IMG/VR virus record: IMGVR_UViG_3300043399_000057
Span: 1 to 42,156 of that record
Strand: one strand, 5' to 3'
Length of the DNA stretch: 42,156 nucleotides
Origin: a virus
Shown here in pieces: positions 5,355-31,261 of the stretch; positions within the stretch are counted from its first letter, which is position 1, and the number at the start of each line of letters is the position of its first letter. The position numbers and the translations under genes are program-made. A model generated the notes under the pieces. It had not been told where the DNA came from and made no database searches. It saw nothing but the letters and a program-made list of their open reading frames with translations.

Positions 5355-5791
5355 TACATTCCAGCTAGGAACTTTTTCCATTCCACGTGTGTTTTAATCT
5401 GCCAATCTCTGGCTTTGATTTGACTTAATATAGACTCAAGAAGGTATATCATTGTTTCAAGATACTCAATCTTGACTCTCATTGTATTTAGATCTGAGTC
5501 CCCTTGAAGGAATTCGTCCATCTCATTCTTTAGTGGCTTAATACCTTGCCACTGTACCCAGCCGAGTTCATTCAATTCATCGCGGCTGAGTTCACCCCTG
5601 TAGTACCTAAACTTATTCTTGCGAAGTTGGTTATGGTCTGATGAAAGTTTTGTGTGTTTGAGTTTAACCCCTACGAGTAATCGTAGATATTTTGCGTGTA
5701 GCTTTGGGGTTGCTGTGGCTTGTTCGCCGAGAAAGTTATCATTAATGGAACAGTCTTTGTCCCATTCATCTTGTAGCTGTTCAATATTCAT
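5354..5791 (-). CDS. uvsY: Recombination mediator UvsY
   Basis: 145 residues, close to T4 UvsY (137). The N-terminus reads MNIEQLQDEWDKDCSIND, the middle has the Tyr-Arg-rich KNKFRYYRGELSRDELNELGW segment, and the C-terminus has LLESILSQIKARDWQIKTHVEW, all matching the UvsY layout. UvsY loads the UvsX recombinase onto single-stranded DNA covered by gp32. It lies immediately upstream of uvsW with a TAATG junction and is preceded by a strong promoter with an inverted repeat (5805-5844) and a GAGGA ribosome site. Identification rests on pattern and position; UvsX is not in this window. Confidence 0.9.
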   Translation of the reverse strand: MNIEQLQDEWDKDCSINDNFLGEQATATPKLHAKYLRLLVGVKLKHTKLSSDHNQLRKNKFRYYRGELSRDELNELGWVQWQGIKPLKNEMDEFLQGDSDLNTMRVKIEYLETMIYLLESILSQIKARDWQIKTHVEWKKFLAGM

Positions 5792-5803
5792 AATATCCTC
5801 AAA

Positions 5804-5831
5804 AATTATGTAGACATTATACTACATAATT
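5804..5831. promoter_or_regulatory. Perfect inverted repeat (possible operator) over the uvsY promoter
   Basis: Ten-base arms (5804-5813 and 5822-5831; AATTATGTAG and CTACATAATT) flank an 8-base centre that contains the -10 TATAAT. The dyad covers the -10 and the expected transcription start, the classic place for a repressor operator. It lacks a T-run and is AT-rich, so it is unlikely to be a terminator. Confidence 0.6.
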
Positions 5832-5844
5832 GTAATAATTTCAA
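5816..5844 (-). promoter_or_regulatory. Sigma70-type promoter for uvsY-uvsW
   Basis: TTGAAA (5839-5844) and a perfect TATAAT (5816-5821), 17 bases apart on the minus strand. The -35 box overlaps the stop codon of the upstream gp3-like gene. The ATG of uvsY is about 25 bases below the -10. Confidence 0.8.
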
Positions 5845-6374
5845 TTAAATTTGTAATAACTGTATCTGAATGTAGCGTTACCTACTAGGTATTGCACGTC
5901 TTGATTTGTTGATTGGAAGTTAAGAGATTCCAAAGAAATTGGAAATAGATCAATAAAACTAACTGTTTGAATAGCTTTATTGTTAGACCCTAAGATTTCT
6001 AGAGTTGCATCAGAATAGTTTTTAGCTAATTCAGAAACAACACCACGTTGGTCTTCATTGATAAAATTAACGTACTGATTGTAGTCATTAGGAAATCCCA
6101 ATGCAATAATCCAGTTGTATATGGATTTGTAGTTCTCCATACTTTCGTCTACCAAAAACTGAACATTCAAAGTATCGTAAGTAAGAGACTCACCTGGAAT
6201 TGGTGTTGTGTGGAATGGGTTTCCAAACTCTGGTGAACCAATCAAAATCCCTGGAAGGTTTACTTGCTGACAGAAGAATGATACGCTTGGTAATTTTTGA
6301 ATGGCAAAATTGAACCCATTTGGTGACAATGGATTTAAGTTTGCTGGAAGAGGACAGGTAAGTGTTGTAGCCAT
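5841..6374 (-). CDS. 3: Tail completion protein, gp3-like (tail-tube fold)
   Basis: 177 residues starting MATTLTCPLPANLNPLSPNG and ending ATFRYSYYKFN. The opening 'FNFAIQKLPSVSFFCQQVNLPGI' pattern and the closing 'ATFRYSYY' strand are those of the tail-tube (gp19/gp54/gp3) fold. Length equals T4 gp3 (176), and its place between gp23 and uvsY matches gene 3 in cyanophage genomes. gp3 caps the finished tail tube so that the sheath and neck can attach. No ribosome site is visible; a CTAAATAA box ends only four bases before the ATG. It could instead be another tube-fold virion protein such as gp54. Confidence 0.65.
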   Translation of the reverse strand: MATTLTCPLPANLNPLSPNGFNFAIQKLPSVSFFCQQVNLPGILIGSPEFGNPFHTTPIPGESLTYDTLNVQFLVDESMENYKSIYNWIIALGFPNDYNQYVNFINEDQRGVVSELAKNYSDATLEILGSNNKAIQTVSFIDLFPISLESLNFQSTNQDVQYLVGNATFRYSYYKFN

Positions 6375-6378
6375 AAAA

Positions 6379-6386
6379 TTATTTAG
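6379..6386 (-). promoter_or_regulatory. Candidate late promoter before the gp3-like gene
   Basis: CTAAATAA on the minus strand, similar to the T4 late box TATAAATA, directly after the gp23 terminator and four bases before the ATG at 6374. If initiation is 6-7 bases downstream as in T4, the transcript would start at or near the ATG (leaderless). Confidence 0.4.
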
Positions 6387-6391
6387 GAATT

Positions 6392-6416
6392 AAAAAAGGC
6401 TCCCGAAGGAGCCTTT
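6392..6416 (-). terminator. Intrinsic terminator after gp23
   Basis: A 9-bp perfect stem (6395-6403 with 6408-6416) with a UUCG tetraloop on the minus-strand RNA, followed by a run of six U. It lies 35 bases after the major capsid gene stop, ending the head-gene transcript. Confidence 0.9.
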
Positions 6417-6451
6417 GAGTACCTATCTTACGTAGGTTCTATCTTACTTGA

Positions 6452-7729
6452 TTACATCAAGTTTGTAACTTTAACCTTGCGGTAGTATACGTTTTGGCCA
6501 GAAGCCATGCTAGTGAATGGGTTTGCAACCATACCGTAGCGAGTCTTGAAACCAATCTTTGGTTGGAAAGTGTTTGGATCAACTGCACGAACCATTTGTA
6601 GAGGAACGTATGGGCAGTAGAACAAACCAGCGTCAAAGGCAGAAGTACCTTTGTAACCAACAACGAAGAACTGGCTAGCAGAAACGTTTGCAGAGTATGG
6701 ATCAACATACACTTTGTACTTGCCGTTTAGAACACCAGCGAAAGTAGTAGAAGTGTCGTCAACATTTAGACCATTGTTACCAGCCAAAGCAGGAGTGTAG
6801 TCTAGAACACCAGCCATCGCCAATGCAGAAGCAACGTCTGCAGAAGTGATGATGAAGTTACCACGACCACGACGAGTTTGTTGACCGATAGCGTTTGCTT
6901 CACGTTCGATTTGGAACATCAAGCCCTTGAACTTTTCAACAGACCAGCGACCGTTAGAGTCAACGTCCAAGTCGAAAGTACCAGCAGTAGCAGTACCAAC
7001 TTGGGCACCAGCCTTAGCAGCAGAGTAAACAGTACGAACAACTTCGCGGTTGATTTCTGCAGTGATTTCAGAAGACAAGATGTTAGACAATTCGCCTTCA
7101 GCATCCAAACCATGAACTGCCTTCAAGTCTTGAGCCAATTCAATAGTGTATTCTGCTTTCAAAGCACGAGTTTGTGCAGTAACAGTAGTCTTCTCGATAG
7201 AGAATGCCATTTGGTTGAACGCTGTTGCGCCACCTAGATCTTCAGCAGTAGCTGTAGAAACTGGAGTACCAGTAGTGTAAGTACCGTCAACTGGGTTAGA
7301 ACCAGCGTGAGTACCAGCACCAGAGAAGTCAGTGTCTGCTTCGTTGAATAGAGCTTCAGCGCCAGCTTGGTTAGTGTACTTGCTCTTCATAGCGAAGATC
7401 AAACCAGTTGGTTGAGTCATTGGCTGAACACCAGCGATGTCATAAGCGATCATCTGTGGAGCAGCACGGCGAACCAAGCTGATTAGAACTGGATCGTAAC
7501 CAGCCATGTTTGCGTTAGTACCAGCACCACCCAAAGCGATACCGTCGCCACCAGCGTTAGCTGGAGTAGCTTCGAACAATGCTTGAGCTTGCTTTGCCAT
7601 TTCGCGTTCTTGGTTTTCCAAAAGAACAGCAGTAACTTCCTTACGGTAGTTGTCTTTGATAGATGGAGCAGATTCTGCGTTTAGAATCGGTGCCCATTTT
7701 TCCATTAGTTGTTGACGTGATGCAGTCAT
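6452..7729 (-). CDS. 23: Major capsid protein gp23
   Basis: 425 residues. The N-terminal quarter holds the LVRRAAPQMIAYDIAGVQPM motif with MTQPTGLIFAMKSKY, diagnostic of the gp23 HK97-fold capsid, and later ADVASALAMAGVLDYTPAL and DPYSANVSASQFFVVGYKG. It is shorter than T4 gp23 (521). The first 65 residues probably form the delta segment removed by gp21 protease; a Glu-containing cleavage site is not assigned. gp23 hexamers form the head shell. The order gp20-21-22-23 is kept and a terminator follows. No gp24 vertex paralogue lies next to it; in relatives without gp24, gp23 itself may fill the vertices. Confidence 0.97.
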   Translation of the reverse strand: MTASRQQLMEKWAPILNAESAPSIKDNYRKEVTAVLLENQEREMAKQAQALFEATPANAGGDGIALGGAGTNANMAGYDPVLISLVRRAAPQMIAYDIAGVQPMTQPTGLIFAMKSKYTNQAGAEALFNEADTDFSGAGTHAGSNPVDGTYTTGTPVSTATAEDLGGATAFNQMAFSIEKTTVTAQTRALKAEYTIELAQDLKAVHGLDAEGELSNILSSEITAEINREVVRTVYSAAKAGAQVGTATAGTFDLDVDSNGRWSVEKFKGLMFQIEREANAIGQQTRRGRGNFIITSADVASALAMAGVLDYTPALAGNNGLNVDDTSTTFAGVLNGKYKVYVDPYSANVSASQFFVVGYKGTSAFDAGLFYCPYVPLQMVRAVDPNTFQPKIGFKTRYGMVANPFTSMASGQNVYYRKVKVTNLM

Positions 7730-7755
7730 TTTATTTTCCTTTTAAATTGTTGAGA

Positions 7756-8739
7756 TTATTTGCGGTTTAGTGCTTGTAGATACTTTGCCATTGTTGGGTC
7801 AACTTTCTTTTCCTCGAACAATGCTTCTACTGGAGCGTCTGATACAACAGAAGATACTTCTGCTGCTGGTTTTGCGACGAAATAATTTTCGCGGATTGTT
7901 TGAACTTTACCTTTGAAAGATTCAGAATCTTCAAAGACTAATTCTTCTGCTAGACCTTTCAACTTCTCGACTTCAGTTGCCGCCAAACCTTCGCATGCCA
8001 TTGTAACGATTTCGTTACGAGTCATTTCGCTGACAGTTTTTGTCAACTCAACGTTGGCTGCTACTTGTTCGTCCAACTTAGCGCTTAGTTGTTCAATCTG
8101 TTCTTCTAAAGAACCTAGTACATCAAACTTCTCTTCTGGAACTTCGATATAGTGTTCTTCGAATAAACCTTTTAGTCCAGCAACAAATCCTTCTAGGATT
8201 TCCGCCTTCATACCACGCTCAAGGGCTAATTCATTCTGTGCCATCCACTGCTCGGCAATATAGCCAAGATATCCATCAACTTGTTCAACAATTCCCTCGA
8301 TATTCTGTGCTAGTTGTTCATCCAACTTAGCTTCGAATGCTTCTTCTAGTTTAGCAACTTCTTGCTTAACTCTAGATACTACAGCTGCTTCAAAAATAGT
8401 TGCAGCTTTAGTTTTAAATTCTTCTGACAATTCTTCGCCGTTGATTAGAGCAGCAACATCAGCAGAAACGTCTACAGACAATTCTTCTTTAACTGTTGGC
8501 TTTGCGTCTTGTGCAGATGCGTTTGCTGTTACTTTGTTAGCCTTCTTAGAAGTACCACCTTCAGCAGACTTTTCATCTTCAACATCATTACGTGCGTTGT
8601 CTGGGTTCTGTGCAGCAGACGGAGCTTTTAGAGCTTCTTCGTCTAACTCATCTTCTACTAGATCTTCGGACAATTGCTCTTCAATTTGAGCTTCCTTAGA
8701 TTCAGCTAGAAGTTTAGCGATTTTTTGTTCGATTGACAT
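7756..8739 (-). CDS. 22: Prohead core scaffolding protein gp22
   Basis: 327 residues, strongly acidic and predicted largely helical (EEQLSEDLVEDELDEEALKAP, later LEEQIEQLSAKLDEQVAANVEL as a coiled coil). It ends MAKYLQALNRK, a closing seen in gp22 proteins. gp22 forms the internal core on which gp23 assembles and is degraded by gp21. It sits between gp21 and gp23 in T4 order with a CAGGAGA ribosome site before the ATG. Tandem ATAAATAA boxes upstream may be its late promoter. T4 gp22 is of similar size (269). Confidence 0.9.
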   Translation of the reverse strand: MSIEQKIAKLLAESKEAQIEEQLSEDLVEDELDEEALKAPSAAQNPDNARNDVEDEKSAEGGTSKKANKVTANASAQDAKPTVKEELSVDVSADVAALINGEELSEEFKTKAATIFEAAVVSRVKQEVAKLEEAFEAKLDEQLAQNIEGIVEQVDGYLGYIAEQWMAQNELALERGMKAEILEGFVAGLKGLFEEHYIEVPEEKFDVLGSLEEQIEQLSAKLDEQVAANVELTKTVSEMTRNEIVTMACEGLAATEVEKLKGLAEELVFEDSESFKGKVQTIRENYFVAKPAAEVSSVVSDAPVEALFEEKKVDPTMAKYLQALNRK

Positions 8740-18792: not shown

Positions 18793-18807
18793 TTATTTAT
18801 TATTTAG
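18793..18807 (-). promoter_or_regulatory. Candidate tandem late promoter before gp13
   Basis: CTAAATAA (18800-18807) overlapping ATAAATAA (18793-18800) on the minus strand, reaching into the stop codon of the PP-loop gene, 17-31 bases before the gp13 ATG. Same tandem layout as before gp22. Confidence 0.5.
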
Positions 18808-19844
18808 TCATCAAGAACATTGTAGAAATCGTTTAGCAAGAACAGCCACTGTGGTCTATAGACGTTGAAGTTTGATATTTTCTTTTCTTTATTCCAAGCA
18901 TAGTGAGCTTCATCAAAATGCTCATCTAAAATCTGCCTCATCTGCCATCTATGAGTATTAGGGTTACCTTTGAATTTAGTGAATGGTTCTTTGGTTGTTA
19001 TAGCCCACTGTTGAAACTCATTCGTGTCGAAGAAAGGAACGACTCGTTTAGCGCGACTTTGCTCTGCCAGTATTCTATGTTCGTACACAGCGGTATACCA
19101 GTCTAAGTTAAAAATACAATACCATCTTAGGTCATTGACGGTTTCTAACTTTCTTGGAGAGTTCTTAATCATAGGTTCTAAGAAGTCTAACAACTCTTGA
19201 TCTATGTTACCTTGGATTCCCTCGTAGATAGTCTCTGGAGTACCCAGTGTGTGGTGAAACATAGCGTTAGGAACATTAGAAAAGAAATCATCTGTTGGAC
19301 CAAACAATTGATTGCCACACATACCACTAACAAAAATACAATCTGTTTGTTTATATGCAAATTGGCTATCTGTTGGGGTTTCTATATCATATTCAAATTC
19401 ATGTCGTAACCTTCTATCAAACAAGTCACCAGACTCGATTATAGAATTGTAAGTACCGTAGATTTTAACTTGACCCCTTGCAGCATACTTGTTTAACAAA
19501 AATAAAATAAAGGTGCTGTCGATTCCACCAGACCACATAACATAAATGTTTTTGTTTCTATCAACAAGTTCTTTCGCTCTTCGTTCGCAAACCTCGAAAA
19601 ATGACATAGAGAAATTGTCATCTCTCGCCAGCATCGGATGTGCCGATGCCTTTATGTTAAGATAGTGTGGAATACTCTGAGATCTATCATAGATCATATT
19701 GTGCTTGTTAAGCCCATGTTTATTGTAAGCGTTTAACAAGTCATCTGAATAATTATTGGCTAGAAATGGTAGAATCTTTTGTTTAGACTCTAGAATAATT
19801 CTAGGCACTTCGTGTGTGTTATAGTATAGAATCTCTGGTTTCAT
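18804..19844 (-). CDS. PP-loop ATPase, asparagine-synthase-like (no glutaminase domain)
   Basis: 346 residues from the ATG at 19844, which has an AGGA ribosome site. An in-frame ATG at 19892 would lie upstream of a terminator hairpin and is rejected. The PP-loop SGGIDST (about residues 105-111) is the AMP-forming N-type ATP-pyrophosphatase motif. FVSGMCGNQLFGP (about 171-183) matches the asparagine synthase SGEGADELFGG segment, but with Cys/Asn replacing the acidic pair. There is no Cys2 glutaminase domain. Such enzymes adenylate a carboxylate, as in asparagine synthase, lasso-peptide cyclase or beta-lactam synthetase. The substrate here is unknown. It sits between a TRAP-like binding protein and gp13 and has its own leader, so it may be a separate late unit. 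Confidence 0.8.
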   Translation of the reverse strand: MKPEILYYNTHEVPRIILESKQKILPFLANNYSDDLLNAYNKHGLNKHNMIYDRSQSIPHYLNIKASAHPMLARDDNFSMSFFEVCERRAKELVDRNKNIYVMWSGGIDSTFILFLLNKYAARGQVKIYGTYNSIIESGDLFDRRLRHEFEYDIETPTDSQFAYKQTDCIFVSGMCGNQLFGPTDDFFSNVPNAMFHHTLGTPETIYEGIQGNIDQELLDFLEPMIKNSPRKLETVNDLRWYCIFNLDWYTAVYEHRILAEQSRAKRVVPFFDTNEFQQWAITTKEPFTKFKGNPNTHRWQMRQILDEHFDEAHYAWNKEKKISNFNVYRPQWLFLLNDFYNVLDD

Positions 19845-19858
19845 AATATTCCTAAACG

Positions 19859-19881
19859 AAAAAGGGAGCCGAAGCTCCCTT
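19859..19881 (-). terminator. Intrinsic terminator after the TRAP-like gene
   Basis: An 8-bp perfect stem (19862-19869 with 19874-19881), UUCG tetraloop in the minus-strand RNA and a run of five U. It lies 18 bases after the TRAP-like stop and before the PP-loop gene start, so it ends the radical SAM operon. Confidence 0.88.
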
Positions 19882-19882
19882 G

Positions 19883-19890
19883 TATTTATC
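19883..19890 (-). promoter_or_regulatory. Candidate late promoter overlapping the terminator
   Basis: GATAAATA on the minus strand matches the T4 late box TATAAATA at seven of eight positions. A start six bases downstream would fall inside the first arm of the terminator, so transcripts from here could not form the full hairpin and would read on into the PP-loop gene. Confidence 0.4.
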
Positions 19891-19898
19891 ACTTCAGA

Positions 19899-20843
19899 TT
19901 AATGTAGTTGAATCTTTTCAACTAGACCTGTAGTAAAGTAGTCTGCAAACTTATCATAGACTGGTGCAGTAACTTGTTTAAAACGTGCTTCTTGTTCAAC
20001 AGTCATCTTAACAACTTCAACACCCTCAGCTTTACATTGAGCCAAGATGTTTGGGATGTCTGCAACAGATTCGCGACGTTCAGCGCGAGCAGCATTGAAC
20101 GCAGCAGTAGACAAGATCTCTTGAGTTTCAGCATCGAACTGTTTAAAGAAGTCTTGGTTGACGATGATAGATGTCAAGAACAAGCTGTGTGCTGTATCGT
20201 TAACAACTTTGAAAGACTTGTGTTGATCTAGTGGGAACACGCGAACGTAAGTGGATTCACCAGCTTCGATCAAACCTGCATCTGCTGCAGCGTTCATTTC
20301 TTCTAGAGCAATGTGTTCTTTTGGTTCAGCGCCTAACAACTTAAAAGTCTCTACAGCAACTGGAGAACGGCTAGTACGAACAGTACGACCTTGCCATGCT
20401 TCTACAGTATCAGCCTTAAAGTTAGCTGGAACAACACGGTATCCACCAGAGTAAGTGAAAGACATAGCGTGTGTGTTAGAATTCTTGGCAACACCAGCCA
20501 ATAGTTCAGTGCCAATCTCACCTTCTAGAACAGCATCCGCATGGGCGTGATCGCGGAACAAGAATGGTAGATCTAGAGCATGTAAGTCTTTGTTGTAGTC
20601 AGCTAACCAAGTAGTGTAGATATGGCTCATTTCGATAGTGCCATTATCGACCAACTTCATTAACGCATCTTTGGTGATCTTTTGACCGCCATTATACTTG
20701 TTTGTGTAGTCAGTCAAAGAAAGAACTTCGATGTCAAATGCACCGTTTGTTTTCTCGTTTACTTCTTTAGCGAAACGCTCTGCTACTTTTAAGAATAAGC
20801 CAATAGGCTCGTGAGCGATAACCCATTTTACGTGCTTAGTCAT
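19899..20843 (-). CDS. TRAP transporter DctP-type solute-binding protein without signal peptide
   Basis: 314 residues spanning the whole DctP-type fold. The N-terminus KWVIAHEPIGLFLKVAERFA is the first strand/helix of the mature domain; LDLPFLFRDHAHADAVLEG and WQGRTVRTSRSPVAVETFKL follow, then the family's Asn/Gly segment and a helical C-terminus. The Arg in RTSRSPV corresponds to the carboxylate-binding Arg of TRAP binding proteins. No signal peptide or lipobox is present, so the protein should stay in the cytoplasm or enter the virion. No TRAP membrane subunits are nearby. It overlaps the 103-aa gene by eight bases (AGGAGA ribosome site inside that gene), and a terminator follows. The ligand is unknown. 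Confidence 0.85.
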   Translation of the reverse strand: MTKHVKWVIAHEPIGLFLKVAERFAKEVNEKTNGAFDIEVLSLTDYTNKYNGGQKITKDALMKLVDNGTIEMSHIYTTWLADYNKDLHALDLPFLFRDHAHADAVLEGEIGTELLAGVAKNSNTHAMSFTYSGGYRVVPANFKADTVEAWQGRTVRTSRSPVAVETFKLLGAEPKEHIALEEMNAAADAGLIEAGESTYVRVFPLDQHKSFKVVNDTAHSLFLTSIIVNQDFFKQFDAETQEILSTAAFNAARAERRESVADIPNILAQCKAEGVEVVKMTVEQEARFKQVTAPVYDKFADYFTTGLVEKIQLH

Positions 20844-21147
20844 TTTTGCTTTCTCCTAGCTTTGTTGTGTCAAAGACCCACTTTTGCGTGTAGTCTTGGA
20901 AATTCATTATTCGTTTTATAACATAAACCTTTTTATTTATAAGTTCTTTCATAAATTCAGGTTCTGGTATCTCTTCTTTATTTATAAAAGAAGAAACTGG
21001 TATAACCGTATCTCGGTGCCCATATTTTTTGGTATTCGAGTCGTAGAAAAAGTAGTCTTTCATATAAAACCACTCTTCTCTACCGTCCCTGCCCATCTCT
21101 CTTGGGTATTGAGATATTTCAATCAGGTGTTGTTTTATAAAGCTCAT
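20836..21147 (-). CDS. Hypothetical 103-aa protein coupled to the radical SAM gene
   Basis: 103 residues, MSFIKQHLIEISQYPREMGR to KLGESKND, rich in Tyr, Phe, Lys and acidic residues and free of Cys. Its ATG overlaps the radical SAM stop (ATGA) and its stop region overlaps the start of the TRAP-like gene, so all three are coupled. It could be a helper or recognition subunit of the radical SAM enzyme, or a small virion protein; no motif settles this. It is not Cys-rich, so it does not look like a classical thioether precursor peptide. Confidence 0.75.
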   Translation of the reverse strand: MSFIKQHLIEISQYPREMGRDGREEWFYMKDYFFYDSNTKKYGHRDTVIPVSSFINKEEIPEPEFMKELINKKVYVIKRIMNFQDYTQKWVFDTTKLGESKND

Positions 21148-22526
21148 GCTGCAAGAATTGGAATAACTTTATTCTTTCTTTTAGTTTCTGGCTTACCATG
21201 AGTCCACCAATAGATATCTTTTCGGTCTTGTCTCAATGGACCATCGATGTACTCTGGGATACATCCTGTCATCTGCTCAAATGCAACGCTGAATGCCACG
21301 ATGTTATCGCTAAATGCGTTATTACAAGAGATCTCCCACAAGTCGCCAGTCAAGAACATACAAGCACCTTTACAGATATGAACTACTGGGCACTTTGGAC
21401 ACTCTTCGCGTTCACTTAGATGCGTAGAAGTTTTTAGGTTGACATTGTTAAGATCTGATACATTACCAACTAGATGAGAAATACCAGATGGGTTTGTAGA
21501 AACAGCGCTGACATTCTGGCAGGTCAAAACATTACCATTTAAGTCTACTGCGATATTTTCTTTCTTGTCCATACCACACTTTTGTGTGACTGAGTCTAGT
21601 CTAACACCTGTAGCAACGGACTTGATAAAATCAGTCACTTTGTCGTGAGAAGTGATAAACTTGGTTACTTTACCCGTGCGATACTCACTCAATGAAAGGT
21701 TTCTAAACTGAACTTCTTGTTCTTCATCCAACAAGGAATTTTGAGCACCACCTTCATCGTATGCATCTACGAACGTGCCTTCTCCGATAACCAAGTGTTG
21801 TGTATACTCATGACTAATATTTTCAGAAATAAATTTAATGAAATATTCTTCAATAGAAGCTCGGCTAATGTTCTTAGCATTGATCATTGCATTGAAGCTA
21901 AACTTACCTTTGGGAGCAAACTTTTTGTAAGTTTGAATAATAGCTTCTTTAGATTCTGGGTCTTGTAGTGGGTCTGGACCTCTGACAAACTGCCCTGGAC
22001 CATCGTGTGAAACTGAAATAGAAAAGTTATACTTGTCTAACCATAAAATCTTTTCTTGGTCCAACAAACTGCCGTTAGTTATAACTGAAAATTCAACTTC
22101 AGGGTATTTTTTGAAAATCTCTTCAACCAGTGGTTTCATAGTTTTCCAATACACAAATGGCTCACCACCCCACAACTCTATTCTAGTGCCTTTACCAGAA
22201 CCATCTGGTCCACCATCGAACCATGTCTTCATGTTATTGACAAATGGAGATACGTCTTCTGGGTTTGTTGAATCTGCATGAGGTACAAATCTTTGATTGC
22301 AGTATTCGCATGAAAAGTTGCAAGAAAGACCAAGTTGGATTTTGATGATCTTTAGATCACCTTTACCTGACACGATTTTAGCAACTTGTTTGGTTGGTGT
22401 GGTAACAGAGTCTAGAAAAATATTCTCACCGCTGTGATCAGAGATAATGTTTACCTCAGTATCGTATGAGAACTTTTTGTGTTTTTGATCGCTGGGATCC
22501 CATGCTTTAATTTCAAATATAGCCAT
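21144..22526 (-). CDS. Radical SAM enzyme with SPASM-type C-terminus
   Basis: 460 residues. The 4Fe-4S motif CNFSCEYC (Cys69, Cys73, Cys76) follows QLGLS, and ELWGGEP (117-123) is the SAM-binding glycine motif. The C-terminal third has Cys317, then AVDLNGNVLTC (Cys336), and a cluster CPKC...C...C (Cys376, 379, 385, 389) plus Cys401, the SPASM auxiliary-cluster arrangement found in peptide- and protein-modifying enzymes such as anSME, PqqE and RiPP maturases. It would act in the cytoplasm on a peptide or protein side chain. It lies behind a fibre gene whose C-terminus is Cys-rich, which suggests but does not prove the substrate. A hairpin separates it from the upstream gene; a GGAA ribosome site is present. 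Confidence 0.9.
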   Translation of the reverse strand: MAIFEIKAWDPSDQKHKKFSYDTEVNIISDHSGENIFLDSVTTPTKQVAKIVSGKGDLKIIKIQLGLSCNFSCEYCNQRFVPHADSTNPEDVSPFVNNMKTWFDGGPDGSGKGTRIELWGGEPFVYWKTMKPLVEEIFKKYPEVEFSVITNGSLLDQEKILWLDKYNFSISVSHDGPGQFVRGPDPLQDPESKEAIIQTYKKFAPKGKFSFNAMINAKNISRASIEEYFIKFISENISHEYTQHLVIGEGTFVDAYDEGGAQNSLLDEEQEVQFRNLSLSEYRTGKVTKFITSHDKVTDFIKSVATGVRLDSVTQKCGMDKKENIAVDLNGNVLTCQNVSAVSTNPSGISHLVGNVSDLNNVNLKTSTHLSEREECPKCPVVHICKGACMFLTGDLWEISCNNAFSDNIVAFSVAFEQMTGCIPEYIDGPLRQDRKDIYWWTHGKPETKRKNKVIPILAA

Positions 22527-22564: not shown

Positions 22565-23542
22565 TCAAACTAATGTATAAGTTAATGTTCGGTGGTTAGA
22601 CCAATATTTATAACCGATCTTTGTGACGATCTCATCTCCAGCATCTAGACCAATAGTTGACACTTTGAATTCAGCAGTGCCGTTCACTACAGGAATCTTA
22701 GTTTTTGCCAAGAAACCAGAGACTTGTTCTAGGTAGATATAATCAACATCAGCTGCTTGAACAGTTACGGTGACTGCTGTTTCTGATTGAGTTACGTTCA
22801 AGATATCAATAGCGTCCATTAGGCTTTCGTGCAGTTTGCCTACAACTCCACCAAATTCTAGTTCTGTATCAACATCTACACTGTGTGTTGCCCAACCAGT
22901 TGTATCAACACCAGCGTATGGATTACCGTTTAGATCATCATATGGAAGATCTTCGCTTATATTTTCAATTTCTTGAGGAACAATCAAAACCAAAACTATA
23001 TCTTCTGGAGTTGGGTTGTCTTTGGTCACAAAGAAAGAAAACACGTTTTCAGGAGCATACATTACCTTAGACTTTGTTGCCAAAGTAGAACCATATGCAT
23101 TGATGATATCAACTTTATTGATATTTTCTGGTTCTTTCGGTAAGAATGGTGTTTCTATTTCAGTAGAAATAGATGTCATCCATTCACTACGATTTTCTTC
23201 TATATTTTTCTTTAGCGTAGTAGGATTGATAGTATAAACACATTGCCCAGCTAGATTAGCAAAATTGTTTAGATCAATACTAATATCAACAAGCTGTCTA
23301 TTTTCAGTTTCATTTCTTAAGATGATAGTCAATACACTATCATCTTTTGTGATGTTATATTTGAAATTTACTGGTGCGCCCTCGTGCGCAGCGAACAATG
23401 TCTGGCTATTTTCAATGACTGAGTAATCAACACCTTCAATTTTAGCGGCTTCGACATGAGCTAGAACCCAAGCATCATCTATAAATTTCATCGCTGGATC
23501 AGCGTATCTTCTAATATGTTGTTTATGTTTTACATATTTCAT
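22565..23542 (-). CDS. Unknown beta-rich protein next to the tail fibre
   Basis: 325 residues, MKYVKHKQHIRRYADPAMKF to HRTLTYTLV, with AGGAATC ribosome site. The first 60 residues look helical, the middle holds extended strands (TIILRNETENRQLVDISIDL), and the last 90 resemble an Ig-like strand sandwich (SETAVTVTVQAADVDYIYL). No catalytic or metal motif and no signal peptide are seen. It starts 13 bases after the fibre gene stops and is closely coupled to it. It could be a second adhesin, a fibre chaperone or a scaffold for the radical SAM enzyme. I do not recognise the family. Confidence 0.75.
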   Translation of the reverse strand: MKYVKHKQHIRRYADPAMKFIDDAWVLAHVEAAKIEGVDYSVIENSQTLFAAHEGAPVNFKYNITKDDSVLTIILRNETENRQLVDISIDLNNFANLAGQCVYTINPTTLKKNIEENRSEWMTSISTEIETPFLPKEPENINKVDIINAYGSTLATKSKVMYAPENVFSFFVTKDNPTPEDIVLVLIVPQEIENISEDLPYDDLNGNPYAGVDTTGWATHSVDVDTELEFGGVVGKLHESLMDAIDILNVTQSETAVTVTVQAADVDYIYLEQVSGFLAKTKIPVVNGTAEFKVSTIGLDAGDEIVTKIGYKYWSNHRTLTYTLV

Positions 23543-23554
23543 TTCTGATTCCTA

Positions 23555-24742
23555 TTAGCAGTTACAGTTACAGTTTCTGCAGTTAGTAAAATGGTGGTGT
23601 GGATCCATATAACTACCAGTATCTAAGTGTAATCTAGACCAACAGTTGTTTGAATGGTGGTTTCCAGGTTGGTGTGCGTGGTTACCAGCGCCACCTGAGC
23701 GACCCCATGTCCATCCTTGGTCGTTGTGTTTAGTATTATGCGGAACCCAAGCACCATAGTTACCCAAGTCGTTGGTAAACTGAGAAAGGTGTCCAGGGCG
23801 ACCTGACACGTTACCCCATGCAACGCTAGAAGCAGAACCAGCGTTACCGCCGATGTTAGTAACAGTTAGAGCACCTGTCATACCTTGAACAGATGTTACA
23901 GGTACGTTAACAGTAACAGCGCCTGTCATACCTTGAACAGATGTTACGTTTGCATTGATTGTTGGGTTACCAGAAACACCATCACCGTTTGATATAGAAA
24001 TACCACTACCTGCAACTACAGATCTAACTGTGGCAGCGCCATCTGATGTTCTAACTACGATACCAGTCCCTGGAAGAGATGATAGCGCAGATAAATCAGA
24101 GTCGTACGGTTGAACGTGCGTACCGATTGTTAGACCAAGAGTGGCACGCGCAGTAGTTGCATCACCATCGTCTAACAAAGTTCTGGCATATGGTGTCAAG
24201 CTAGTAGTATCAGCAGTACCAAGACCTGTATAGTAAGGTAATGTATTGGCTGCAGATGTTGTAGAAGCTAGGGCATCTAACTCTAGATTCCATGCTTGCA
24301 CATCAGAACCAATGGCTAGACCCAAGTTAGTTCTAGCGCCAGCTGATGTAGATGAGCCAGTACCACCATCTGCGATTGCCAAGTCTGTGATACCTTGGAT
24401 CAAACCGCTGGTGATAGCTGCTTCGCCAGAAAACTTACCTGAGAAATTAGCAGCTGTGATTACGTTGGCTTCAAAGTTACCTGAAGCATCACGAACTACT
24501 GCAGAGCTTTTATCAGCACCAGCTGGTAGCAATACAGACGCGCTATAACCATCTAGTAAGTCGGCATCTAAACCAGAACCGCTACCGTCAACTGTTTTAA
24601 GTTTAGTTAAGATATCAGCTGCATTATAATCAACAGCTGTTAATTTTGTGGCTAATTCGTTGTTCAGGTTACTAAAGTTTGCATCGACTTCAGCGTTAGT
24701 CAGCGGACTTCCTTTAGTACCTCTTAATGTAATAACTGCCAT
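23555..24742 (-). CDS. Tail fibre protein with His-rich and alternating-Cys C-terminus
   Basis: 395 residues. The start [20 protein letters not shown] and following [13 protein letters not shown] are common to T4-like fibre proteins; the middle has tandem A-x-L-G-L-T/A-I-G and [13 protein letters not shown] repeats typical of trimeric fibre shafts. The last 60 residues change character: Gly/His-rich ([21 protein letters not shown]), ending NCRNCNCNC with Cys at 388, 391, 393 and 395. His and Cys could bind metal as T4 gp37 HxH motifs do, or be modified by the nearby radical SAM enzyme. It is at the T4 short-fibre/whisker position, upstream of the radical SAM cluster. GGAT is the only ribosome-site-like motif. 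Confidence 0.88.
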
Positions 24743-24753
24743 TTAAGGATCCT

Positions 24754-24993
24754 TTATTTTTGCAAAATTTGGAGAATCAAAGATTTTATCTCTTGCAATT
24801 CATTCTTTATATTATTTATCTCTTTGGTATTATGAGAAATTTGATCCATCTTTTCCTTTTGGATTCTGGCTTCTTCTCTTCTCTGTAGATACCTTTGAAC
24901 TTCGGTCTTATCAGTATTTATGATAGCCCCGTTAGAGACATCCCTAACTAGGCTATCATGACCAGCAACCTTCAGTCTATCACGCACAAGCAA
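24754..24993 (-). CDS. Small coiled-coil protein upstream of the fibre
   Basis: 79 residues, MLVRDRLKVAGHDSLVRDVS followed by NGAIINTDKTEVQRYLQRRE and a heptad-like tail (NTKEINNIKNELQEIKSLIL). The opening 'LVRD..VAGH..L.RD...GAI.NTD' pattern is seen in small phage proteins encoded beside baseplate/tail genes. The start overlaps the end of the 2093-aa gene by 14 bases. It may be a structural connector or assembly factor. The function is unknown. Confidence 0.75.
   Translation of the reverse strand: MLVRDRLKVAGHDSLVRDVSNGAIINTDKTEVQRYLQRREEARIQKEKMDQISHNTKEINNIKNELQEIKSLILQILQK
24813..24820 (-). promoter_or_regulatory. Candidate late promoter for the fibre gene
   Basis: ATAAATAA on the minus strand, inside the 79-aa gene, 71 bases before the fibre ATG. 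Same box as before other structural genes, but intragenic copies occur elsewhere, so support is weak. Confidence 0.3.
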
Positions 24994-27900
24994 TAACTCT
25001 TAAATCTTTAATTCTAGGAACGGCTGAACTATTTGTTGACTTCATTACAATCTTAACAACGATATTGTCGAATGGAGCCATGTTATCGATAGTGTAATCA
25101 CAGTCGTAGAACGATTCATTTCCATTCTGAACTTTAACTAAATTGGAATCTGGTGTTGCCAGTGTATATTTAGTTGTTGTTAATTTAGTCTTGTCGCCAA
25201 CACAAGTCTTGTAGTATACAAGTACATCTGAAGAGTTAGGGATATTTGCAGCAAACTTAACTCTAACATTAGTAGATACGTTTTCCAACTTGACTGCAGA
25301 AGTAACGTACTTGCTTAGAGATGAGCTGCCGTTAGGTGAAATATCATCCAAGAACAGTTCTCTGATTGAAACAGTTGTACCGCTAACAGAACTCTCAGCA
25401 GTGAAAGTTGTGTCTAGAGTCAAGGTGCCAGTTGTGCCATCGTCTGCGTAACCAGTGATTAGAACAGTCTTGTTGTTAGCACCAGTTGTAGCGCCAGCAA
25501 TAGTGATGTACTTGCCGATAGAAGCAATAGCCATTGCAGTTCTAACTTCAGCGTCTGTAGATGTTATAGTACCACCAGCGGTAAAGTTAAACACACCGTC
25601 TGTGTGAGAGAAAATCTGCTTAACGTCTAACGCTGATACGTTGACATTAGACTCTGATGGGCTATTGATCTTGTTAGAGATAGCAATCAAACTTGTACGA
25701 GCAGTATCAATAACTGGTGACACTGCATCGTTAGAAGTTTGCAAACGAGCAGAGAATGTCAATGACTTGTTACCAGACATCAAGCTGTTTTCGTTTGGTT
25801 CAGAAGAAATAACTCTTGGAGTGTAGAAGTAGTTATTGTCCTTAACCAAGCAAGGAGAGAATCCTGTATCAATCACATAAGGAGTTTCGCCACCATCAAC
25901 AGACTTACCTGATGTAGTCTTCACTGAGAATGAAGCGTTTGTATCAGAGAATGTTTGCATCTGAACAGATGGAACCAATACGTCGTATTGAATGTTTGCA
26001 GTGGCTCTAACACCCAGACCACCAGCATATCCAGTAGATGTAGCTGCAGTAGTAGTTGCGATAGTATAAGAATTCATATCAACGTTTGAAATCAAGTGTT
26101 CTTTGTTGAACTCTGATGCTGGAATACCGTTGATTGCAGAAGCAACGCTGTCGATAACAACTCTAGAGCTAACAGTCATACCGTGGTCTTTGTGCCATAC
26201 ACGAACTGTTGTAGAACCTACAACAGTCTGGAATGGATCGTTTTCGATCTCAACGTATGGTAGAACGTCGTTAACAAACTCTACGTTACCGATAACGCTA
26301 GTGTCAAATTGTGCTCTGTAAATAGAGAACTTGATATCTTGGTTCTGATCAGCTGTCCATGTAGAAGCGTTTTGTGATTTAAACATAACACCAGCATAAG
26401 GCTGCTCAGAAATAGTTCTGCTAGTTCCAGGAATCGTATCACCTACGTTAGAGATCCAAACCTTGTAGTTGTTTGAATCAGACAGTAGAACAAAACAGTA
26501 TTCAGCGTTGTCTTGAACGTAAACAGGAGTTTCGAATGTAAACGATGTTGCTGTATTGTAGTCAGCGTATGATACATTGTCTAGAGTAACAGCAGTGTAA
26601 CCAGCAGCAACTGGGTCTTCGCCAGCAACTGGAGCGTTAACAACTTCTGGCTTTAGAGTAACTCTAGAGAATGGAAGAATATTCTTACCTGGATATCCAT
26701 TTACCATCTCTCTGATTTCAAGAGAAACTGGCACTGCAACATCTTTAGTTGCAAAGAACACATCAATCTTTGTCAAGAAAGCACCACCCTTTTGCTGAAC
26801 CAAGAATGATTGAGCAAGTGGATCGTACCAACCTGTGTCTGAAACAACGCGCTCAGATGTTTGGTAGATTGTTTGTCTAGCTTCTGGATCGTCGTTTGGA
26901 CCAATAACTTCTTTAACCAACTCTGCGTTACGAACAGCGTTGATGATAGATTGTTTAGTCTCTAGAACACCTTGTGCTCTGTACATACCACGACCACGAG
27001 ATGTGAATTGTCCGTTAACAGTTGGAGTGTCTACCAACTTCAATTCTCTAGAACCAGTGCGGAATCTAACTGAATCTGTGTTAGGGATATTGAACAAGAA
27101 GTTAACTTCACCGTTCTTGTTAGAAACCAGAGTAGTTGGAGTTGATACAGAAACAACAGTACCTGTTGCTCCAGAAACAGAACCAGAGAATGACTGCCCA
27201 ACTGCAAATGTACCTTTAACGTTAGCCAATTCTAGAGTTAATGTATCTGTTTCTGGATCGATAGACTTGCTAATAACTACGGCAGAAGCAGTTTCTAGAG
27301 AGTTGGTAATAACATCACCACGGTTCAAGCAAACTTGAGAATCACCGTTAATTCTACGCTTTGTTTCAGAAGAAGCGCCACCAACGTTTGTGTCAGTGTC
27401 AAATACACCAACTCCAGCTGTGTACACCATTTTAATAGATGGTGTAACAAAAGAAGAAATGTCGATGTCATCAAAGAATGGATAGAAACGTGTTTCTGGC
27501 TTCATACCCTTTACCTGAACTAGAATATTTCTAGAACGGATGTAAGGAATTGTTGCAGTAGAAACAACACGTTCACCAACTTGTTGATAATCAGTCTTTG
27601 TCGCTAACTTAGTTCTGATGCCAGTTCTTGATTGACCAACTGGTGTAGCCAAAACTTCACTTACAACTTGACGGATAGCCCAGCCACCTGCTTCTGGACC
27701 AACACCGAATTTTGCATCAAGGGCAGCACCGCCATCGCCACTACGACGATCAGCAGAGTAGCTACGTGTACCTTGAGAAATTGGTTGACCAATCCACTCA
27801 TCTTTCCAAGCACCCCAAACAGTACCATAACCGTTTTCTTGGATAGTGCCAGACTTGATTGCCAACTCGCGAATCAAGTTGTAGTTACCTTCTACATTAA

Positions 27901-30900
27901 TGATGTCTGGAGCAACTTTGTTAGTTTCAAACCAATCATCAGAAGGTGGGTTGATGCTAACGTTACCCAAGAATGTAAAGATTGCAAATGGGTTAATGTT
28001 TTCTAGTCTAGAAGCATATTCTTGCTTGACCAAAACTTTGTTTGCAATGATAGGCAATGTGATAACATCACCATTGATCTGGTAGTTAGAACTATCGCGT
28101 TGGATATCAGTAGAGTTCTTTTCCAACAGATTAACGTTTTTCATAGTGTAGAATGGACGCAACTCACCATTGTTCATGTCAATAGAACAGTAGTAGTCAG
28201 GAGAGCCGACGTTACCGATATTGTTACCAGTAAAGTTATCTACAATGAAACCATTCTTTGTTCTGTCTAGACCGTACTCGTCTGTTATCTTAAGAGACTG
28301 AGTTTCTTGCTCTAGTAGAGAAAGAGAAGTGTAGTATTCTAAGTTGTTGATTCTAGTTTCTAGCTTACCAATGTCGCGCATTGTGTAACGCTTGTTTTCT
28401 AGTTTCTGAACATTAACGTTGTTTGACTTAGTGCCAAATGTGTATGGTTCTAGTGTGATGTTATACAACACCATACCCAAAGCTGGATCTTGAGGGTCAC
28501 CTGGATTTAGAGATGATACGCCAGCAACAGAGAAGAATTTACCGTTGAAGTCGATAGCAATCTTATCTTTTCTAGCAAGGTAGTAGCTAAAGTCTGCTAG
28601 GATGTCAATACCACGTTTTGGAATTGATGTTAGAGAAGAACCTGTGCCAATAAAGTTTCTAGTAGAACCAGCGCTCTTGTTGGCTACACGTGGTCTAAAG
28701 TCAATTGCATCGCGGCAGTTAGCGGGGATTGACTTGTAATCAATGTTTGTGTAAGAGTTAACATCAAAGTAGTCACCAACACCATGTTCGAAATATTCGT
28801 ACTGGATTCTGATTGGGCTGTTTGGAGCGCTATAAGACGCTTTAAGAATTAGTCTACCTAGATCATAGTGTGTTGTGCGTTGACCATCATCAAACTCGTA
28901 GAAGTCTGTGATGTCTGTTGTGTAATCTTCTGGCGCTGGAGTTGAACCAAACGCAAAACCACTAGCCATTTTAACACTAATCAATCTAAACACGTCAGCG
29001 TGTTCTAGCAAGATAGTAGATGCTTTGGCGTCAGAAGCGCTAGTCAAAGTCATTGGTGTTGCTGTTGTTAGAGTCTTTGTTTTCTCGAAAGAAGAACCAG
29101 AACGAACAACAGCTGCAATAACAGAGATAGAACGGTTTGCTCTGCCAGATGGAACCAATACAGTCAAGTTAGAACCAGATGGAGTCACAGAGTCTGGTGT
29201 GAATACTTCACCGCCTGCAGTGGCATCGTTATCAATAAAGATATAGTTGTCTGTTTCTGCGTAAGAAGCAAATGTACCAGAGATAGAGAATGTAACTGAT
29301 GTGCCAGTTGCAGTCTGGGTAATCTTTTGGTAGCATGTATAGCTAGTGTCGTTGATACCACCAGTACCAGCTTGACGCATAGATCTAACAGCGTAGTATG
29401 GTAGTGGGAACAACAGAGAGTTATTTCCTGGTTCTACAATTTCTGTTGTTGCCAAGCTATATGCTTTGCCTGTGAACGAGAATGTAGATGGAACAGTCGC
29501 TGCTTCTTGGCTAGATGGATTAGCAGTAATACGAACCATCTGTCCGTCGACTACGATGTAATCACCTGCAGAAAGATCTGTCTGGAATGATGTTCCAACA
29601 CCAGTTAGTGTACCGCCAGAAGCGCTAACAGAACCAGAAAGAGTAGATGTTACTGGATCAATATCAGCAGAGAAGCTCAACTGAGGATCTCCAGAAACGC
29701 TGTAGTAGAATGATTTTACATCGCGGTTGAAGTCAAACCCGTTGTTCATTTGAACATCGAATAGACCAAGTTTATAAACAGAAGATGTGTTAAACGGCAA
29801 GCCAGTGTGCCATTCAATAAAGCGAATACGGGCAGTACCAATATTGTTACCAACTGCAGTACCGCGACCGCTAGATCCTGTTATTTGATCATACAAACGA
29901 ATTGTGTCATATGAGTCAACTGGTGGCAAGTTGTTCACGTTCTTAACAAGAACATAATTACCAACAGTGGCTGGAATAATAGCGTCAACGGCTTGAGCGT
30001 ATTCTCTGGACTTTGATACTGGAAGATATGTTGTTGAGTCTTTTTCGATCTCATAACCGCGAACATATGCCTTACCAGCTTCTAGTCCGATAGCTAGTTT
30101 TGTTTCATCGCCATTCAAGTAGATACCACGGTTGTAAGCTGGAGCTTCTGTGTATTCCCAGTTGATACCTGTAGAACCTGGACCGTCATATGCAGTTCCA
30201 GTTGTATGAGTTGGAGCAGTTGTTACAGATGAGCCGCTGTTTTTCGCAACGTATAAGTTACCGCCGTGTGCAACAATATCACCAATCAAATAGCTAGTGT
30301 TCTGAGCCCAAGCGCCACGATCGTTGTTACGGTGTTCTCTGATATCGATTGCAAATTCTTTTACAGTGTAGTCACCAGATTCGTCGTAAGTTCTACGAGC
30401 CAATTCTTTGCCAATCAAAGAATACTCTGTTGTCTTAACGATTGTGTCTACAGTACCATTGTTAACACGAATCAATTCTACAAAGTCTTGATCGTCTGTA
30501 TCATCAAGTGCTTTCTTAATAAGAATCAACTCAATGTAGTAACGGTGAGCGCCTGGAGCAGCAAAGTTGTAGCTGTTTTGTGCATTGTCCAAAAGAGTTT
30601 CGTCTTCTTCTGGAGTAATAACTTTCTCACTAACATCCAAACCAACTCTGTATGTTGGGCTATTTGAATATTTTTCTAGAATAATTGTTTGTTCTTCAAC
30701 TAAACAGAAGTGACCATTGATGTAGTAGACACCTTCTTTAACTGTGGCCAAAGAACCTTTACCGACTGCTCCAGTAGAAGCAGCTTGGAAAGAGTAAGCA
30801 CCGTCTTCAGTCTGAATAACTTCAGAGTTTGAGAATGTTTTTGTTTGTCCATCATTACCTGAGTTTAGATAACGGACATACAATGTTGTTGGATCAGATT

Positions 30901-31261
30901 CTTCAGCGCTTTGAGTTTTGATAACTTGCGCCTTCACGCCGCTAGAACCAATGATAATCTGATCTTTAAGGCTAGTCAAAAATGTTTCGACTGCAACGCC
31001 AGAGTACAAGGAAACTAATTTAACGTAATCAGAACCTTGGTTTTGTTGTGTTACAGTTTCAACAGACGCTTGACCTGGAATGACCATAGCACCTTGCTTA
31101 AAGATAGCATCGCCATGTCTCTTAATTTGATTCTGCAGAATAGTCTGCATTTGAGTAAGTTCACGTGCTTGAACTGCAAATGAAGGGCGATACAAGATTC
31201 GGTAAAACTTTTTACCTTCTTCAAAGTCATCATTATACGGTTCTGTGTTGAAATCTATCAT
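24980..31261 (-). CDS. 10: Giant DUF4815 virion protein, gp10-like baseplate/fibre connector
   Basis: 2093 residues. The N-terminus IDFNTEPYNDDFEEGKKFYR then RPSFAVQARELTQMQTILQ and the KQGAMVIPG segment are the DUF4815 signature found in large structural proteins at the gp9/gp10 position of cyanophage-type genomes. A carbohydrate-binding-like module lies at about residues 318-372 (WAQNTSYLIGDIVAHGGNLY, TAPTHTTG). The long remainder is beta-rich. It probably forms the baseplate periphery to which fibres attach, a role split over gp9, gp10, gp11 and gp12 in T4. An ATAAATAA box lies 34 bases upstream of the ATG. The symbol 10 is by position and cyanophage usage, not proven. Confidence 0.8.
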   Translation of the reverse strand: MIDFNTEPYNDDFEEGKKFYRILYRPSFAVQARELTQMQTILQNQIKRHGDAIFKQGAMVIPGQASVETVTQQNQGSDYVKLVSLYSGVAVETFLTSLKDQIIIGSSGVKAQVIKTQSAEESDPTTLYVRYLNSGNDGQTKTFSNSEVIQTEDGAYSFQAASTGAVGKGSLATVKEGVYYINGHFCLVEEQTIILEKYSNSPTYRVGLDVSEKVITPEEDETLLDNAQNSYNFAAPGAHRYYIELILIKKALDDTDDQDFVELIRVNNGTVDTIVKTTEYSLIGKELARRTYDESGDYTVKEFAIDIREHRNNDRGAWAQNTSYLIGDIVAHGGNLYVAKNSGSSVTTAPTHTTGTAYDGPGSTGINWEYTEAPAYNRGIYLNGDETKLAIGLEAGKAYVRGYEIEKDSTTYLPVSKSREYAQAVDAIIPATVGNYVLVKNVNNLPPVDSYDTIRLYDQITGSSGRGTAVGNNIGTARIRFIEWHTGLPFNTSSVYKLGLFDVQMNNGFDFNRDVKSFYYSVSGDPQLSFSADIDPVTSTLSGSVSASGGTLTGVGTSFQTDLSAGDYIVVDGQMVRITANPSSQEAATVPSTFSFTGKAYSLATTEIVEPGNNSLLFPLPYYAVRSMRQAGTGGINDTSYTCYQKITQTATGTSVTFSISGTFASYAETDNYIFIDNDATAGGEVFTPDSVTPSGSNLTVLVPSGRANRSISVIAAVVRSGSSFEKTKTLTTATPMTLTSASDAKASTILLEHADVFRLISVKMASGFAFGSTPAPEDYTTDITDFYEFDDGQRTTHYDLGRLILKASYSAPNSPIRIQYEYFEHGVGDYFDVNSYTNIDYKSIPANCRDAIDFRPRVANKSAGSTRNFIGTGSSLTSIPKRGIDILADFSYYLARKDKIAIDFNGKFFSVAGVSSLNPGDPQDPALGMVLYNITLEPYTFGTKSNNVNVQKLENKRYTMRDIGKLETRINNLEYYTSLSLLEQETQSLKITDEYGLDRTKNGFIVDNFTGNNIGNVGSPDYYCSIDMNNGELRPFYTMKNVNLLEKNSTDIQRDSSNYQINGDVITLPIIANKVLVKQEYASRLENINPFAIFTFLGNVSINPPSDDWFETNKVAPDIINVEGNYNLIRELAIKSGTIQENGYGTVWGAWKDEWIGQPISQGTRSYSADRRSGDGGAALDAKFGVGPEAGGWAIRQVVSEVLATPVGQSRTGIRTKLATKTDYQQVGERVVSTATIPYIRSRNILVQVKGMKPETRFYPFFDDIDISSFVTPSIKMVYTAGVGVFDTDTNVGGASSETKRRINGDSQVCLNRGDVITNSLETASAVVISKSIDPETDTLTLELANVKGTFAVGQSFSGSVSGATGTVVSVSTPTTLVSNKNGEVNFLFNIPNTDSVRFRTGSRELKLVDTPTVNGQFTSRGRGMYRAQGVLETKQSIINAVRNAELVKEVIGPNDDPEARQTIYQTSERVVSDTGWYDPLAQSFLVQQKGGAFLTKIDVFFATKDVAVPVSLEIREMVNGYPGKNILPFSRVTLKPEVVNAPVAGEDPVAAGYTAVTLDNVSYADYNTATSFTFETPVYVQDNAEYCFVLLSDSNNYKVWISNVGDTIPGTSRTISEQPYAGVMFKSQNASTWTADQNQDIKFSIYRAQFDTSVIGNVEFVNDVLPYVEIENDPFQTVVGSTTVRVWHKDHGMTVSSRVVIDSVASAINGIPASEFNKEHLISNVDMNSYTIATTTAATSTGYAGGLGVRATANIQYDVLVPSVQMQTFSDTNASFSVKTTSGKSVDGGETPYVIDTGFSPCLVKDNNYFYTPRVISSEPNENSLMSGNKSLTFSARLQTSNDAVSPVIDTARTSLIAISNKINSPSESNVNVSALDVKQIFSHTDGVFNFTAGGTITSTDAEVRTAMAIASIGKYITIAGATTGANNKTVLITGYADDGTTGTLTLDTTFTAESSVSGTTVSIRELFLDDISPNGSSSLSKYVTSAVKLENVSTNVRVKFAANIPNSSDVLVYYKTCVGDKTKLTTTKYTLATPDSNLVKVQNGNESFYDCDYTIDNMAPFDNIVVKIVMKSTNSSAVPRIKDLRVIACA
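30146..30310 (-). other. Carbohydrate-binding-like module in the gp10-like protein
   Basis: Residues about 318-372: aromatic W...Y..G..V...G.LY spacing followed by TAPTHTTG and INWEY, like small ChiC-type carbohydrate-binding modules. The same pattern recurs twice in the gp8-like wedge. Confidence 0.6.

Follow-up and report, generated by a model that had tools for sequence, protein, structure and literature searches.

Known modifying systems and phage fibre tips

Fibre tips decide which bacteria are infected by a phage, and they are usually viewed as plain folded protein with metal ions at most. The alternating residues of a strand face one side, which is the geometry of an HxH site. The SPASM domain has a pattern of seven cysteines (CX9-15GX4C, CX2CX5CX3C, and C), and in the enzyme anSME the residue Asp277 has a catalytic role. 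Of the known kinds, the system described here is nearest to the SCIFF/ranthipeptide maturases and to systems that modify repeats, such as His-Xaa-Ser. According to the available part of a review, a peptidyl Cys occupies an open cluster site in CteB, and the Aux I cluster of RumMC2 has three Cys (PMC8172795). HxH iron in T4 gp37 and HxH motifs in some marine phages have been reported (PMC11705849). Radical SAM genes are also on record in phages. For example, the pelagimyophages MAGV3 and MAGV16 carry radical SAM cassettes in their host-recognition cluster (PMC7029224), and the Campylobacter phage IBB_35 has a radical SAM gene (PMC3322345). In the available portions of these two phage reports, no fibre substrate is proposed and no Cys tail is mentioned. 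Likewise, no prior report of a Cys tail paired with a radical SAM enzyme was found in the portion of the open-licence PubMed Central literature covered.

Here, a phage locus is described in which a tail fibre with a Cys tail is encoded upstream of a radical SAM/SPASM enzyme. On balance, we favour the reading that the Asn-Cys tail of the fibre is the substrate peptide of a phage radical SAM/SPASM maturase that forms thioethers, which would constitute a RiPP-like system acting on a virion protein.

The gene island and its fibre

The window, that is the whole stretch of DNA analysed, comprises 42,156 nucleotides of the IMG/VR virus record IMGVR_UViG_3300043399_000057. This 42-kb stretch is a fragment of a T4-like myovirus, with PHROG matches to the major head protein, portal, sheath, tail tube, large terminase, baseplate wedge and hub proteins, and late sigma factor. 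A minus-strand island is flanked by the neck gene region (~18.0 kb) on one side and by the gene of a large protein at 24980-31261 (PHROG 358, DUF4815) on the other. Its genes are, in order, those for the fibre, ORF325, the radical SAM/SPASM enzyme, ORF103, a DctP-type solute-binding protein, and a PP-loop-like protein.

The tail-fibre protein (23555-24742, minus strand, 395 aa) matches PHROG tail fibre families and consists of N-terminal fibre repeats, a His/Gly-rich tip, and the Cys tail; comparison of the whole fibre with the PDB by sequence returned nothing useful. A first, sequence-only reading had described a Gly/His-rich stretch followed by a terminal NCRNCNCNC, and both are borne out, as the His-rich tip (residues 353-384; 23591-23686, minus strand) holds GNHAHQ, GNHH, and DPHHH, and the tail forms residues 387-395 (23558-23584, minus strand). 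The extra upstream Cys is present at residue 367 (NNCW). As for the four alternating Cys of that reading, their number is right, but their spacing is C-x-x-C-x-C-x-C and only the last three strictly alternate. The downstream SPASM enzyme is real and lies two genes away (21144-22526, minus strand, 460 aa), with matches to Pfam Radical_SAM, PHROG 1802, and the SPASM domain model TIGR04085. Between the two is ORF325 (22565-23542, minus strand), a fast-evolving partner with a C-terminal Ig-like domain at residues 243-325.

The gene of the small protein ORF103 (20836-21147, minus strand) overlaps the end of the enzyme gene, and it is found at the same position and size in two fibre relatives, L002 and L003 (L numbers designate loci). 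Its neighbour family is a cluster of 23 loci in which the copy of the window is not listed. ORF103 is seen in the T4-like subgroup and is not core to the cassette. The DctP-type TRAP solute-binding protein that follows the enzyme at 19899-20843 (PF03480, 150.8 bits; neighbour family of 24 loci) is an odd cargo for a host-recognition island. The PP-loop ATPase-like protein at 18804-19892 has an SGGIDS motif and weak QueC/PAPS-reductase PHROG matches, with a neighbour family of 27 loci; by eye, it recalls the amide-forming enzymes of asparagine-synthetase type.

Linkage of the Cys tail and the enzyme

The forward set of loci was gathered with an alignment of four enzymes as the query and included 30 loci from bacterial genome contigs beside the viral relatives; the window, L002, and L003 entered via the fibre and not via the enzyme. 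From the 114 loci in total, the 99 with at least 4 kb upstream were counted and the 15 with less than 4 kb were set aside, 8 of which still show the tail. A tail was scored when a same-strand ORF no more than 6 kb upstream carried CxCxC in its last 16 residues, or the Hint form described below. An upstream ORF with an alternating-Cys tail is present in 90 of the 99 enzyme loci, the viral part of which is the best 80 of 455 relatives. When the loci are grouped into clusters of 80% identity the figure is 52 of 55 (54 of 55 by a looser pattern), and the other three clusters have near-forms; the cluster outside the looser pattern is L006/L012, ending NCRNCNC. The nine loci that miss the forward pattern include these two, L093 with its NC repeats further inside, L111 with NCNCDRNCGC, and L114 with the Hint form downstream, while in L075, L102, L108, and L113 no tail was seen upstream of the enzyme. 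Among the low-scoring enzymes (<400 bits) the tail is found in 12 of 17. Such tails are beyond chance, since among ORFs of at least 60 aa in the same loci CxCxC falls within the last 16 residues of 104 out of 1166 ORFs inside the upstream region of the enzyme and of only 5 out of 3983 outside it.

The reverse scan was blind to the enzyme, and viral contigs were searched for DNA encoding NCNCNC followed by a stop. At least 120 stretches were obtained; 35 were dropped because the pattern did not end an ORF of at least 60 aa, and 85 were kept. Among the matches listed, 51 stretches extend at least 3 kb past the tail, and 46 of these contain the enzyme, in 45 cases on the same strand as the tail and downstream of it; duplicates were not removed from this count, and some of its contigs are also in the forward set. 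The five stretches with at least 3 kb downstream in which the enzyme is absent encode small proteins of 184-202 aa ending NCNCNC. When ORF325 was used as a third entry point into 18 loci, the enzyme was found in 17 and the tail in 17, the two misses being at contig ends. Taken together, the tail-enzyme link is well supported. As a separate observation, proteins of ~184-202 aa that end in NCNCNC, with the enzyme absent from the DNA scanned, occur in L147, L169, L184, L196, and L213, in L144, L179, and L190, and in L175; here, such tails may have a separate and unrelated use.

A DNA repeat artefact is ruled out, as 70 distinct C-termini that finish with NCNCNC use 35 different DNA sequences for their last seven codons. 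The same conservation with synonymous change, together with the two-way linkage to the enzyme, makes it extremely improbable that the tail is a disordered terminus with free thiols or disulfides and no particular function.

Diversity and relatives of the tail

The C-terminal 100 residues of the fibre have two viral-contig relatives, with 58% and 53% identity, whose C-termini are HLDTNHNMDPHHHYYNCTNCNCNC and HLDTGTGLDPHHHYLNCINCNCNC. Both of these (L002, L003) keep the order of fibre, ORF325, enzyme, and ORF103. The Cys pattern, whose loss in close relatives had been named beforehand as a ground for refutation, is conserved. Across the wider set, 84 distinct linked tails have 3 to 8 Xaa-Cys units, and the residue before the Cys is Asn in 271 of 352 cases, Ala in 30, Asp in 23, and Arg in 12. 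The Xaa-Cys run forms the very end of the protein in 58 of the 84 tails. The tail Cys are kept while the surrounding residues vary and the fibre bodies differ. As single-linkage clustering of the fibre bodies merged 87 of 103 via shared repeats, no number of independent fibre folds is claimed. A further Cys lies upstream of the tail in 71 of 90 fibres, often as GNCGN.

The metal-threaded tip that the sequence-only reading had raised bears on this upstream element. Here, the tail and the His-rich tip would bind a column of Fe or Zn in the trimer core in the manner of the gp37 HxH sites, and the enzyme would do something else or prepare the site. By eye, NHxH in the window, L006, and L012 occupies a like place to the GNCGN of many relatives, which would be a His/Cys exchange of a kind compatible with metal ligands; the alternating residues of the tail also match the HxH geometry, and HxH iron or motifs are reported for T4 gp37 and some marine phages (PMC11705849). 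Yet HxH is found within the last 90 residues of just 11 of 90 distinct linked fibres, and DPHHH in 7 of 90, whereas the Cys tail is near universal. Moreover, no radical SAM enzyme is required to build a metal site, and the enzyme is nearly always there. The T4-like metal tip is rejected as the main explanation on the HxH count; the case for this reading is weak and it is unlikely overall, and a metal tip may occur in the His-rich subgroup.

In four fibres (L004, L064, L082, and L114), a match to a Hint-type (intein-like) domain starts at the Cys that follows the tail or adjacent to it; of these matches, one is above the Pfam cut-off and three are below. Cleavage at this domain would leave the tail exposed at the C-terminus. 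Other loci adjoin lambda J-like host-specificity proteins, tape measures, and fibres; hence, the cassette belongs to the tail modules of several phage types. Some loci depart from the simple arrangement. For example, L096 has two adjacent radical SAM genes (5666-6754 and 6758-8164) after a fibre with an extended NCNCNCACACACACNC tail, and in L049, L060, L078, and L250 a single enzyme gene is preceded by three short consecutive ORFs (~90-170 aa), each of which terminates in an Asn-Cys tail of its own. A related cassette, whose tails include FNCNCNCRC and FNCNCACRC, is found in the Rhodobacterales contigs L097, L099-L101, L103-L107, L109, and L110; in L100, the one locus checked, it is beside fibre genes. 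The cassette of these contigs may belong to a prophage or to a gene-transfer-agent-like tail module.

The search of annotated phages with the fibre C-terminus gave no convincing relative, so the named isolates were identified through the enzyme. These are the Achromobacter phages JWF and 2-1, the fibre having been examined for JWF alone. The JWF enzyme is the closest relative among annotated phages (42% identity over 99%) and lies downstream of a fibre with QNCNCDCNCNCSC and then a Hint domain. The comparison of JWF with the window is a first sign of the enzyme and the tail travelling together between quite different phages. The Xylophilus phage Lumi is described as JWF-like (PMC9959647), and the cassette genes go unmentioned in the available text of PMC7996906.

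The radical SAM/SPASM enzyme

Exactly ten Cys are invariant in 53 of 53 aligned enzymes, namely CxxxCxxC and those at 317, 336, 376, 379, 385, 389, and 401. Three of them are the SAM-cluster Cys and seven are those of a complete SPASM domain, the pattern of radical SAM/SPASM members, and the TIGR04085 SPASM model scores 33.7 bits against a cut-off of 27. In the HMMER alignment to anSME 4k37, C317 and C336 are aligned with C255 and C276, respectively. The anSME C261 has no partner in the enzyme, there is no other conserved Cys near C317 or C336 among the 53 enzymes, and where anSME has Asp277, all 53 have Gln. From the sequence, Aux I would have three ligands (C317, C336, and C389) and an open site, as in the thioether enzymes.

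None of the NCBIfam maturase cut-offs was reached among 25 of 38 families listed, in which PapB has the best score (64.3 against 340) and SCIFF reaches 41.6 against 425. As the scores are far under the cut-offs, the chemistry is not readable from the family, and the enzyme looks like a separate subfamily. Judged from these profiles and the Cys pattern, it is a member of the radical SAM/SPASM superfamily that is in none of the curated maturase families tested. Its AlphaFold2 model (pLDDT 91.7) has CteB as the best fold match (Z 24.6 over 357 residues), followed by ChlB (Z 21.7), anSME (Z 20.8), and TigE, with the epimerase EpeE at Z 13.1. On this model the lead of CteB is modest, ChlB and anSME being not far behind. 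Residues 1-55 form a short beta element within the range of the CteB alignment, and no full RiPP recognition element (RRE) was seen in them.

The enzyme might also turn the tail Cys into another product, such as formylglycine (with aldehydes binding host amines), D-residues, or other carbon changes, so that the tip would be reactive or reshaped and not stapled. The fold matches to anSME and EpeE agree with this, as does the record name of the JWF homologue, "anaerobic sulfatase-maturating enzyme." However, none of the 53 aligned enzymes has the fourth Aux I Cys or the Asp277 of anSME, and the sulfatase-maturase model scores 42.1 against a cut-off of 349.45. On these grounds the identity as an anaerobic sulfatase maturase is rejected, the name of the JWF copy is probably wrong, and the wider group of such products is considered improbable.

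Partner genes

Relatives of ORF325 are found in 85 of the 114 enzyme loci by profile match, some with weak scores, and they diverge fast. The AlphaFold2 model of ORF325 (pLDDT 86.8) has an Ig-like domain that resembles the Ig domain of intimin (Z 9.0 over 80 residues). Foldseek against the PDB gave nothing at E 0.001 or better, and the seven BFVD matches at that level are none of them functionally named. Assignment to a known fold was rejected on the empty PDB search, as only the Ig-like domain matches well. ORF325 likely has a virion or tip-binding role.

This partner offers another target, as it is itself closely linked to the enzyme in these 85 loci and in 17 of the 18 entered through it. 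The enzyme could act on ORF325 or on a surface molecule of the host, with the Cys tail being an independent feature of the fibre. Across 51 sequences, though, ORF325 has one invariant column, a Gly, and no conserved reactive residue, whereas the Cys of the tail are retained on fibre bodies that differ from one another. The enzyme gene moreover starts 12-19 bases after the tail gene in some loci, and we regard a target other than the tail as very unlikely.

Outside the close kin of the window, genes resembling 2OG-Fe(II) oxygenases lie between the tail and the enzyme in many loci, as expected of a peptide-modifying cassette. This cluster holds 54 proteins from 47 loci; out of seven representatives of the cluster and its neighbours, two pass the Pfam cut-off, three are below it, and two have no match. 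Examples are found at L039:5857-6480, L034:90-614, L046:6390-7001, and L097:5181-5924. The oxygenase-like proteins may hydroxylate the tail Asn.

Proposed mechanism and significance

The two-way linkage, the retention of the tail Cys, and the three-ligand Aux I fit a maturase that binds the Cys thiolates of the tail and forms thioether bridges. The early suggestion that the tail is a substrate of the downstream SPASM enzyme has thus gained strong support from the linkage, the Cys conservation, and the thioether-maturase-like Cys set-up, from which we infer the modification itself. Modification of fibre tips by a conserved phage cassette is very likely. We hold with good confidence that the enzyme has the tail as its substrate, and we slightly favour a thioether product. 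More tentatively than either, the modified tail would stiffen or protect the host-facing tip.

The proposed enzyme would act before or during fibre assembly. SAM would be cleaved, and hydrogen would be taken from a carbon of an Asn, Asp, or Ala residue near a Cys. The substrate thiolate would be held on the open Aux I cluster, and a bridge from the Cys sulfur to the carbon, that is a thioether, would be closed. Such steps, when repeated along the tail, would cap the distal, host-contacting tip of the fibre with a rigid, cross-linked C-terminus, with the Ig-like ORF325 probably being a tip partner or a substrate-presenting protein. Bridges between neighbouring or alternating residues of an extended strand would be strained, and we know of no natural product with exactly this bridging pattern. 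PapB joins Cys and Asp over spacings of 0-6 (PMC9413430), and short rings are therefore possible.

If the stapled tip is real, a RiPP-like modification would act on the host-recognition tip of the virion in T4-like, lambda-like, and other phages and prophages. A radical enzyme dedicated to a repeated Cys tail in many different phages would mean chemically altered host-recognition residues, which sequence-based prediction of tips would miss. It would also provide radical SAM chemistry with a system of C-terminal tags and give an assignable function to PHROG 1802, a phage family without one. A broader proposal is more speculative, and we put it forward as a possibility that falls short of an even chance. 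Here, a widespread phage system would combine thioether-stapled Cys tails within or between the trimer chains, oxygenases that hydroxylate Asn in many phages, and Hint domains that trim the fibre in some.

Comparison with known systems

The iron tip of T4 gp37 shares with the present tail the distal trimeric fibre tip and the alternation of ligand-type residues; it differs in having His in place of Cys, seven sites, and no modifying enzyme described in the available part of the source (PMC11705849). The window has one HAH and one HHH, and a gp37-type run of several conserved HxH motifs was not seen, HxH being confined to 11 of the 90 linked fibres. Among the repeat-modifying systems, TvgB, which acts on TVGG repeats to form cyclopropylglycine, likewise has a radical SAM enzyme that works repeatedly on a short repeat; it modifies Val and involves no Cys (PMC9062424). 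Similarly, the His-Xaa-Ser system (HxsB/HxsC) pairs radical SAM maturases with a short target motif (PMC9062424). It differs in its two enzymes and its His-Xaa-Ser motif, and the enzyme of the window scores 51.7 against the cut-off of 370 for HxsB, the one of the two that is among the 25 families listed.

The SCIFF/ranthipeptide maturases, such as CteB and PapB, share the radical SAM and full SPASM domains, the predicted three-Cys Aux I, and a Cys-rich substrate that is encoded nearby; CteB is the best fold match, and PapB has the best NCBIfam score among the families listed. The phage enzyme differs from them in being far below the family cut-offs and in having no evident full RRE. Their substrate is a small leader-core peptide, whereas that of the phage enzyme would be the C-terminus of a large fibre, in which Cys alternates with Asn.
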